NCBI GenBank assembly: GCA_022865705.1
Contig: JALHTG010000019.1
Location: 115,784-179,783 of the forward strand
Reading direction: 5' to 3'
DNA length: 64,000 nt
From: Candidatus Bathyarchaeota archaeon
GTDB taxonomy: Archaea; Thermoproteota; Bathyarchaeia; 40CM-2-53-6; JALHTG01
The notes beneath the pieces were generated by a model that worked only from the letters and a program-made list of their open reading frames with translations, did not search any database and was not told the DNA's origin. The translations under genes and the position numbers were made by a program. Below are positions 8,910 through 46,831 of this stretch, in pieces (position 1 is the stretch's first letter; each line of letters begins with the position of its first letter).

Positions 8910-9055
8910 GCGGGGGTACCCGAGACCCGTCTATCTCTAGAAGGGCGGGATTCAGGTCTAAGGGGCAGGGCCTCACGCTCCGGAATGGGCCGTGGGGTGC
9001 AAAGCTTAGGACCCTGTGGCAAAGGCCTTCGTGGGTTCGAATCCCACCCCCCGCA
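8910..9055 (+). tRNA. tRNA-Leu(UAG) with anticodon-loop intron (~8972-9005) and apparent D-loop intron (~8928-8953)
   Basis: Acceptor GCGGGGG/CCCCCGC; T-arm GTGGG-TTCGAAT-CCCAC; anticodon stem CAGGG/CCCTG with loop C|TTAGGA after intron removal; Leu-type variable arm TGGCAAAGGCCTTC. Confidence 0.8.
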
Positions 9056-9202
9056 CTTCTACTCCTCAGTAGCAACATGATTTCAATGTCATTTGATGAA
9101 ACCCAAGACTGTCAATTAGCCTCGATTGCGTGACGGACGATCCTCGCACTGATGCCTCGCTGCTATGAGGGTTACATCAGAGTTTGAATGGAATAGTCGC
9201 AC

Positions 9203-36427: not shown

Positions 36428-36542
36428 TGGACCGGGCGGGATTTGAACCCGCGGCTTCCGCGTCTCTGTGCAAGATGCGAACTCGGCGTATGTACTGACG
36501 ACGTCTAAATCGCCATTCATACCAAGTTGAACTCCCCGGGTC
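36428..36542 (-). tRNA. tRNA-Ala-like gene or remnant; 3' half clear, 5' half and anticodon arm irregular (introns or decay)
   Basis: T-arm GCGGG-TTCAAAT-CCCGC then CCGGTCC-A; candidate 5' end GACCCGG pairs imperfectly; a CTTGCAC string is present internally. Confidence 0.4.
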
Positions 36543-38150: not shown

Positions 38151-39380
38151 TTGAGATATGTGGATTTTGTAGATCTTAGATACAGGCCTAAGGAAACTGA
38201 TGTTGTCTGCACCTTCTACGTTGAACCTGAAGGTATCAGCATAGAGGAAGCGGCCGGGGGAGTTGCCGCTGAAAGCTCCATAGGGACATGGACCGAACTC
38301 ACAACAACAAAACCGTACGTGGAGGAACTGGCGGCACACGTTTTTATCATAGAAGGAAACAATGTGAGAATAGCGTATCCGGTAGAGCTTTTCGAAAAGG
38401 GAAACATGCCCAACTTACTTAGTAGCGTTTCAGGAAACGTTTTCGGGCTGAGGGCTCTTAGGAATCTGAGGCTCAACGAGATTAAACTGCCAAATGATCT
38501 CGTTCGAAGCTTCAAAGGCCCCAGATATGGTGTGGAAGGAATCCGCAGGCTTTTGAAGGTCTATGATCGTCCTCTCGTAGGGACTATAATCAAACCTAAG
38601 CTGGGACTGAAGACATCTGATCATGCAAGAGTCGCTTATGAGGCTTGGATTGGAGGCTGCGACATAGTCAAGGATGATGAGAACTTGAGTAGCCAAGGGT
38701 TCAATCCTTTCGAAGAGCGTCTGATGGCGACCTTGGAGAGCAGGGACAAGGCTGAAGCAGAGACCGGTGAAAAGAAGGTCTACATGGTTAACGTCACCGC
38801 TGAAACAAGGGTGATGCTGAAAAGGGCAGAATTTGTGGTGAAACATGGTGGGGAATATGTTATGGTTGACATCCTAACGTGCGGGTTTGCTGCTTTACAG
38901 ACGTTGCGTGATCAGGAGTTTGATCTTGTGATTCACGCGCACAGAGCGGGGCATGCTGCGGTCACTAAGAACTCTAAGCATGGAGTCTCAATGCAGACAA
39001 TAGCACGAATTGCGAGAATACTCGGTGTAGATCAGCTTCATGTCGGCACTGTTGTCGGCAAAATGTTCGAGACGAAAGAGGAAGTGGCTGAGAACTGTAG
39101 GGCTTTGAGAGAGAAGGTGGAGCACTTGAAACCTGTTCTTCCAGTTGCTTCTGGCGGATTACATCCTGGGTCCGTTCCAGCGCTAATCAGTTTCTTTGGA
39201 AAAGATTTCGTTATCCAGGCTGGTGGAGGTATTCACGGCCACCCGGACGGAACAGTAGCAGGAGCAAAGGCCATGCGCCAATCCGTTGACGCAACTCTAC
39301 AGAGTATGTCGCTGAGTGAATACGCTGAGACGCACAGAGAGCTTGAATCTGCACTCGAAACTTGGAAGCAGAGCGACTAG
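38151..39380 (+). CDS. rbcL: Ribulose-1,5-bisphosphate carboxylase large subunit, form III-type
   Basis: GTIIKPKLGL, GGCDIVKDDE, VIHAHRAGHAA, LHVGTVVGKM, ASGGLHPG, QAGGGIHGHPDGTVAGAKAMRQ; E/N/K active-site residues retained. Confidence 0.93.
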   Translation: MRYVDFVDLRYRPKETDVVCTFYVEPEGISIEEAAGGVAAESSIGTWTELTTTKPYVEELAAHVFIIEGNNVRIAYPVELFEKGNMPNLLSSVSGNVFGLRALRNLRLNEIKLPNDLVRSFKGPRYGVEGIRRLLKVYDRPLVGTIIKPKLGLKTSDHARVAYEAWIGGCDIVKDDENLSSQGFNPFEERLMATLESRDKAEAETGEKKVYMVNVTAETRVMLKRAEFVVKHGGEYVMVDILTCGFAALQTLRDQEFDLVIHAHRAGHAAVTKNSKHGVSMQTIARIARILGVDQLHVGTVVGKMFETKEEVAENCRALREKVEHLKPVLPVASGGLHPGSVPALISFFGKDFVIQAGGGIHGHPDGTVAGAKAMRQSVDATLQSMSLSEYAETHRELESALETWKQSD

Positions 39381-39726
39381 CGAGCGCGATAGAGAGAATC
39401 TCACAAATAGCTGTGACCTGTACTATGCTTTCTGATCGAAAACGACTGAGACTCTGAATTGTTGCCCAATACCAGGCAAGTAGGATTGGCTGTACCCTTC
39501 GGAGTGGTTGGATTCGTATTCAAAGCGGCCGGGCTTGTGGCGTCCGTACCACTTTCTAGGACTCCACCCATAGACATTGACCTTGGTGCGCTCATGCTAT
39601 GTCTAGCAGGCATGGCAACCGGGCCAATCATTGGAATCATAGTTGGCGCGCGCCTAATCAGATGATAACCGGAGTTGGGTCTTTTCAGACATACTTCTGA
39701 TGAGGATGTCCTGGCCCACCAAATGG

Positions 39727-39894
39727 TGCTCCGGGCGGGATTCTCGTAGCGCTAGTCGCCAATTCGAATTCGCGAACCCGGAAGTCACTCCTAGGTTTCC
39801 CGCGATCAGCGACTCGATTGGCCTTCGCGTCGAAAGCGAATAAGGCCGCTATGCTATCGGCCCTGTGTGGCTAACCGGGCTACACCACCGGAGC
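39727..39894 (-). tRNA. tRNA-Glu(UUC) with at least two introns, one inside the T-loop (~39744-39773)
   Basis: Acceptor GCTCCGG/CCGGAGC, Glu-type D arm GTGT-AGCCCGGTTAGCC-ACAC, CTTTCGA anticodon-loop string, T-loop split as TTC|30 nt|GAAT, then CCCGC-CCGGAGC-A; 168 nt total. Confidence 0.8.
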
Positions 39895-40066
39895 ACCGTA
39901 GGAAAGCAAGTCCTTCAGACTTTAAGCTCTTTCGTGGGTCTAGTCCTCTTGTCTTAGTGAAGTATTCGATTTGACGATATTGGACACGAAATAACCTTTC
40001 GTAGCTCTTTAGGGATTTTGGAAATCGTTCAACAATGAGAGGGATTCCGTATCTGAAGTATTCTCG

Positions 40067-41152: not shown

Positions 41153-41244
<92 letters not shown>

Positions 41245-46759: not shown

Positions 46760-46831
46760 GCCGGGGTGGCCGAATGGTTAGGCAGCGGCCTGCAGAGCCG
46801 CATCACACAGGTTCAATTCCTGTCCCCGGTT
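46760..46831 (+). tRNA. tRNA-Cys(GCA), intronless, followed by CCA in the DNA (46832-46834)
   Basis: GCCGGGG...CCCCGGT-T; anticodon arm GCGGC-CTGCAGA-GCCGC; T-arm ACAGG-TTCAATT-CCTGT; U73 discriminator. Confidence 0.95.

Follow-up and report, generated by a model that had tools for sequence, protein, structure and literature searches.

According to published accounts, an archaeal tRNA gene holds three introns at most (PMC4033280, PMC4390854, PMC8450103), and for the Thermoproteales the highest published load is 71 introns in 46 genes (PMC8450103). In islandicum, of the Thermoproteales, tRNA genes contain several bulge-helix-bulge (BHB) introns each, mostly at non-canonical sites, together with an (alpha-beta)2 endonuclease (PMC4390854, PMC4090602). 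For environmental genomes outside the Thermoproteales, the main text of a report on three Asgard genomes (Atabeyarchaeia and Freyarchaeia) gives 228 introns, with >90% of the tRNA genes interrupted, over half of them by more than one intron, and with non-canonical sites in use (PMC11291895). In the open-access literature that we searched, there was no paper dedicated to the tRNA introns of Bathyarchaeia and no report of an archaeal tRNA with four introns, although a prior listing in a supplementary table is possible.

Here, we analysed a 64,000-nt stretch of DNA (the window) from a metagenome-assembled genome (MAG) of the class Bathyarchaeia and identified on its minus strand (39894..39727) a tRNA-Glu(UUC) gene of 168 nt with five exons and four BHB introns, the latter located at 20b/21, 34/35, 53/54 and 59/60 and being 16, 24, 30 and 22 nt in length. 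The gene resembles those of islandicum, Atabeyarchaeia and Freyarchaeia in carrying several introns and in the use of non-canonical sites, and with islandicum its host shares a predicted (alpha-beta)2 endonuclease. Unlike islandicum, for whose order three introns are the stated maximum (PMC4033280, PMC8450103), it has four, belongs to another class, and contains a 6-nt T-loop microexon between the 53/54 and 59/60 introns. Atabeyarchaeia and Freyarchaeia are a different lineage, and the largest intron number per gene is absent from the main text of that report (PMC11291895). tRNA-Pro(GGG) likewise has four introns in seven genomes, this one included, and tRNA-Asn(GUU) has four in four genomes, which exceeds the published archaeal maximum in a widespread uncultured class. 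Taken together, the locus very probably encodes a working tRNA-Glu(UUC), no other gene for which was found in the genome, and its four short BHB introns would be spliced by an (alpha-beta)2 endonuclease and RtcB. An initial annotation of this DNA had proposed a tRNA-Glu gene with several BHB introns at non-canonical sites, which holds in essence, including the involvement of the T-loop surroundings, whereas its break points and its intron number had to be replaced. It had also pointed to TACK archaea with multi-intron tRNAs such as the Thermoproteales; the host is a member of Bathyarchaeia instead.

Exons, introns and the placement of their junctions

The ends of the gene are exactly as first given, and the acceptor and the interruptions of the anticodon region and the T-arm were likewise borne out. 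With its acceptor GCTCCGG/CCGGAGC, discriminator A and 5′ letters GCTCCGGTGGTGTAGCCCGG, the gene bears the archaeal tRNA-Glu signature, and read from 39894 to 39727 its 3′ end is CCCGCCCGGAGC-A-CCA, the CCA being encoded at 39724..39726 (-). A BHB was called strict when the last exon letters ahead of the 5′ bulge paired with the intron letters ahead of the 3′ bulge in a central helix of 4 bp and both bulges were 3 nt long. The initial annotation had named BHB motifs at the junctions as a check, and this strict geometry is present at every one of the four introns.

All of the following coordinates refer to the minus strand. Exon 1 (39872..39894; positions 1–20b, GCTCCGGTGGTGTAGCCCGGTTA), the boundary of which is identical in six relatives, is followed by intron 1 (39856..39871; 16 nt, site 20b/21; CGGT TA^G ... 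GCCG AT^A), so that the D-arm, initially described as clear, is in fact broken just before A21. Exon 2 (39842..39855; positions 21–34, AGCATAGCGGCCTT) leads to intron 2 (39818..39841; 24 nt), which lies within the anticodon at 34/35 and has the BHB GGCC TT^A ... GGCC AA^T with a 5-bp inner helix; it takes the place of an insert of about 60 nt that had been proposed between the anticodon stem and the T stem. Exon 3 (39799..39817; positions 35–53, TCGAGTCGCTGATCGCGGG) and intron 3 (39769..39798; 30 nt, site 53/54; CGCG GG^A ... CGCG AA^T, 5-bp inner helix) precede exon 4, the microexon TTCGAA (39763..39768; T-loop positions 54–59), after which come intron 4 (39741..39762; 22 nt, site 59/60; TTCG AA^T ... 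CGAG AA^T, 5-bp inner helix) and exon 5 (39727..39740; positions 60–73, TCCCGCCCGGAGCA). Removal of the introns yields a tRNA-Glu of 76 nt, GCTCCGGTGGTGTAGCCCGGTTAAGCATAGCGGCCTTTCGAGTCGCTGATCGCGGGTTCGAATCCCGCCCGGAGCA, with a perfect cloverleaf (acceptor 7/7, T stem 5/5, anticodon stem 5/5 including one G-U, T-loop invariants complete). The five exons are colinear inside the 168 nt, and this order rules out a split or permuted gene.

An unsupervised search, in which every set of up to four strict-BHB introns in the precursor was ranked by its best cloverleaf, had its optimum at four introns with a score of 31.2 (runner-up, 23.3) and returned introns 2 to 4 as given above; no reading with fewer introns reached a comparable score. 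When the sequence was shuffled with the acceptor fixed (n = 20), the best total was 10.3 versus 31.2, and among 402 segments of the window with a paired acceptor but no tRNA, the cloverleaf score stayed at or below 16.4, versus 29.6 for tRNA-Glu. Shuffling the letters of each intron restored its central and inner helices at rates of 0.0044 (intron 1), 0.00005 (intron 2), 0.00005 (intron 3) and 0.00015 (intron 4).

For intron 1, the first choice of the same search was a 17-nt intron at 19/20 (GCCC GG^T ... GGGC CG^A). This too is a strict BHB, and its central helix is slightly better, GCCC/GGGC with Watson-Crick pairs at all four positions; the gene would still have four introns, and the mature tRNA (CGGTTAAGC) would have the D-loop AGCCCGGATA. 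In the relatives, however, the intron lies at 20b/21 with CGGT TA^ ... ^A and leaves the D-loop AGCCCGGTTAA, and the 16-nt register reproduces both exactly. Because it yields the D-loop of the relatives, we favour 20b/21 and consider 19/20 unlikely. The choice of register sets the mature length, which is 76 nt for 20b/21 and 75 nt for 19/20.

The initial annotation had split the T-loop as TTC|GAAT (56/57), with 22 nt inserted into the T stem, and a first parse by hand followed this break; introns that are fewer or placed otherwise, as in this parse, would give the same T-arm letters (GCGGG + TTC + GAATCCCGC). Yet neither of these inserts has a BHB in the strict scan, whereas the introns at 53/54 and 59/60 each have a strict BHB with an inner helix of 5 bp and flank an intact TTCGAA, and the same pair of sites surrounds TTCRAA in five other loci, L048, L156, L160, L226 and L227 (microexon TTCAAA). 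The hand parse was dropped in favour of the strict-BHB parse, and we find such alternative placements very improbable. The duplication GCGGG/CGGG, on which an intron near the T stem had been postulated, is real and is due to the stretch CCGGGTTCG within the 53/54 intron, although the break points differ from those proposed.

Intron sites of tRNA-Glu in related genomes

The class assignment rests on the neighbouring RuBisCO-like gene and on a genome of the same class in which two tRNA matches have the contig coordinates of those in the genome of a locus named as Candidatus Bathyarchaeota. The genome is the sole member of its family among the genomes searched, which include 37 others from its order; of 24 genomes behind named loci, none was identified as belonging to that order. 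Across the order, tRNA-Glu introns occupy the sites 10/11, 20b/21, 34/35, 37/38, 53/54, 59/60 and 70/71, of which the relatives carry subsets, and the four sites of the window gene are all found again in tRNA-Glu elsewhere in the order, one or two to a gene. Excluding the window, the same site is used in 8 loci for 20b/21, about 10 for 34/35 (with strict BHB), 5 for 53/54 and 17 for 59/60, some of the last having one mismatch in the central helix. The introns diverge in sequence between genomes while the exons are nearly constant, and those of the window gene show zero mismatches to the consensus of the relatives and no visible decay. The arms of the inner helices pair better within their own intron than when swapped between genomes (82% versus 52% for 34/35, 97% versus 77% for 53/54 and 100% versus 79% for 59/60).

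Other families of the class Bathyarchaeia have an intron-free tRNA-Glu with the same body, for which reason intron gain inside the order would be the simpler reading. As sites are filled in some close relatives and empty in others, the gain and loss of introns can be traced directly. The genome itself offered no source for the four Glu introns: comparison with its other tRNA loci gave only chance matches of 9–14 nt, those in locus L006 coming from overlap with the same gene, and transposition of introns within the genome was rejected as their origin.

In three relatives, the 3′ acceptor strand of tRNA-Glu is interrupted at 70/71 by an intron whose inner helix measures 6 to 11 bp. In one family of the order (f3), the anticodon region of tRNA-Glu contains 60–70 nt for which no set of strict BHBs accounts; introns at 34/35 and 37/38 with a 3-nt exon between them are possibly the explanation. 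A search allowing sequential splicing in this family did not resolve the anticodon-region introns, and the f3 sites listed from 34/35 to 40/41 without a strict BHB are unsure.

Decoding of Glu codons and the predicted splicing pathway

When the genome was searched with the mature Glu sequence, only the window gene had a matching 5′ part, and the second intact tRNA-Glu(UUC) gene that the initial annotation had suggested looking for was not found in this MAG of 91.6% completeness and 6.3% contamination. The only other Glu gene found, on another contig (C94), is a Glu(CUC) gene with two introns. Under standard wobble rules a Glu(CUC) tRNA would not read GAA, and GAA is used (50 GAA and 38 GAG codons in six ORFs), which speaks for an essential role of the window gene. 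At 91.6% completeness a second tRNA-Glu(UUC) gene could be missing, which makes this argument supportive rather than proof. The same incompleteness would accommodate a decaying tRNA-Glu pseudogene with unrelated inserts, the true Glu(UUC) gene lying at another locus, whether within the MAG or outside it, and decay of tRNA genes does occur here, two decayed tRNA-Ala copies (window ~36428–36540 and contig C82) having been recognized by eye. However, the mismatch-free exons, the strict BHB at all four inserts, the conservation of the insert sites between genomes and the finding of Glu(CUC) as the only other Glu gene make a pseudogene highly improbable.

The tRNA-intron endonuclease domain is present in two proteins, L020 (186 aa) and L021 (176 aa). 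L020 matches the EndA alpha subunit of Aeropyrum pernix (3p1z, E 9e-41), the alignment covering its length, and its segment FYGKPVGLPKPK aligns with YYGQPLDVEKPR of A. pernix such that K39 corresponds to K44, the crenarchaea-specific loop lysine, which is required for the broad specificity of the splicing endonuclease (PMC6379350). It also contains GIDHAPF, whose histidine is the residue replaced in 3ajv. L021 is a more distant member and is read as the putative structural subunit. As in the (alpha-beta)2 endonuclease of A. pernix (3p1z, 3ajv), there is thus an alpha subunit bearing both the loop lysine and the region of the catalytic histidine, and a separate second subunit, whose action on the tRNA-Glu substrates is predicted from sequence. 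The proposal in the initial annotation that a broad-specificity splicing endonuclease processes such genes is consistent with these two genes, which appear to encode an enzyme type able to handle non-canonical sites. An RtcB ligase is also encoded.

A putative TATA box, CTTAAAG (39920..39926, (-)), matches by position, its TTAA starting 31 nt ahead of the 5′ end of the mature tRNA. TTAA or TTTA occurs at -36..-22 in 12 of 33 tRNA genes of the genome, versus 0–2 of 33 at -78..-46 and 0–1 of 33 at -24..-4. From the exons, the BHBs, the conserved sites and the enzyme genes, we infer that the whole 168-nt precursor would be transcribed, that the heterotetrameric (alpha-beta)2 endonuclease would cleave both 3-nt bulges at each BHB, and that RtcB would ligate the exons into the 76-nt tRNA. 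Not all four BHBs appear when the full precursor is folded to its minimum energy. Those of introns 1 to 3 may coexist in it, but forcing them costs, at 37 °C, about 6 kcal/mol out of 70, a gap that proteins or temperature would have to close. Once intron 3 is excised, the T stem (5 bp) serves the BHB of intron 4 as its outer helix; because this excision joins GCGGG to TTCGAA, intron 3 would probably be removed first and intron 4 thereafter. With its 6-nt microexon between two introns, the gene lends itself as a small model in which to study ordered splicing by an archaeal endonuclease.

Detection and other interrupted tRNA genes

In a scan of the window, the tRNA-Glu(UUC) gene was missed both by ARAGORN and by Rfam at the gathering threshold, each of which matched only a tRNA-Cys at 46760; at default thresholds, one of the at least four tRNA genes in the window was recovered. 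Common tRNA finders miss such genes, so tRNA counts and apparently missing tRNAs in genomes of this kind may be in error. A tRNA-Leu(UAG) gene at about 8910–9056 (+) with at least two introns was also missed by ARAGORN and Rfam, and a tRNA-Val(CAC) gene at 41154–41244 (-) has a single 16-nt intron. About 350 nt from the tRNA-Glu gene lies a RuBisCO-like large chain of 409 aa (38151–39380, (+)), the top matches of which are in Candidatus Bathyarchaeota MAGs (75–79%).

A second four-intron gene of the same genome, tRNA-Pro(GGG) on contig C15, has strict BHBs at 15/16, 20b/21, 30/31 and 45/46. Pro(GGG) of six other genomes has four introns at 20b/21, 30/31, 37/38 and 59/60, all strict except the first in one genome (G015), and four strict introns are present in tRNA-Asn(GUU) of four genomes from the order. 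Since four-intron genes recur in the relatives, they are characteristic of the lineage rather than an artefact of sequencing. No five-intron gene was found among His and Asn of the order, a weak negative given that many His loci aligned poorly. The genome has at least 62 introns in 35 parsed tRNA genes, about 1.8 per gene, a count that includes relaxed BHBs and hand parses (one locus, L179, by hand) and enters one gene (L013) with one intron where two are likely. As the survey covered targeted loci, is incomplete, and many-intron genes are the hardest to find, we claim no record density. We are evenly poised over a broader proposal, namely that this order of Bathyarchaeia has passed the three-intron ceiling, with four strict BHB introns kept across genera in Glu, Pro and Asn, that the density of interruption in its tRNA sets would equal or exceed that of any published set, and that splicing of the T-arm would be ordered, with 53/54 excision exposing 59/60 across the 6-nt microexon.

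In four tRNA-Asn(GUU) loci, one of the four introns lies directly after position 8. On contig C10 of the genome, near 24907, there is a tRNA-Asp-like body with a likely 17-nt intron in the variable loop and no recognisable acceptor partner. The decayed tRNA-Ala copy in the window (36428–36540, (-)) is of the Ala(CGC) type; its 3′ half and both intron regions resemble an intact gene of the genome (L016) while its 5′ acceptor strand is unpaired, and it is probably a tRNA pseudogene. The copy on contig C82 is a similarly decayed tRNA-Ala(GGC).
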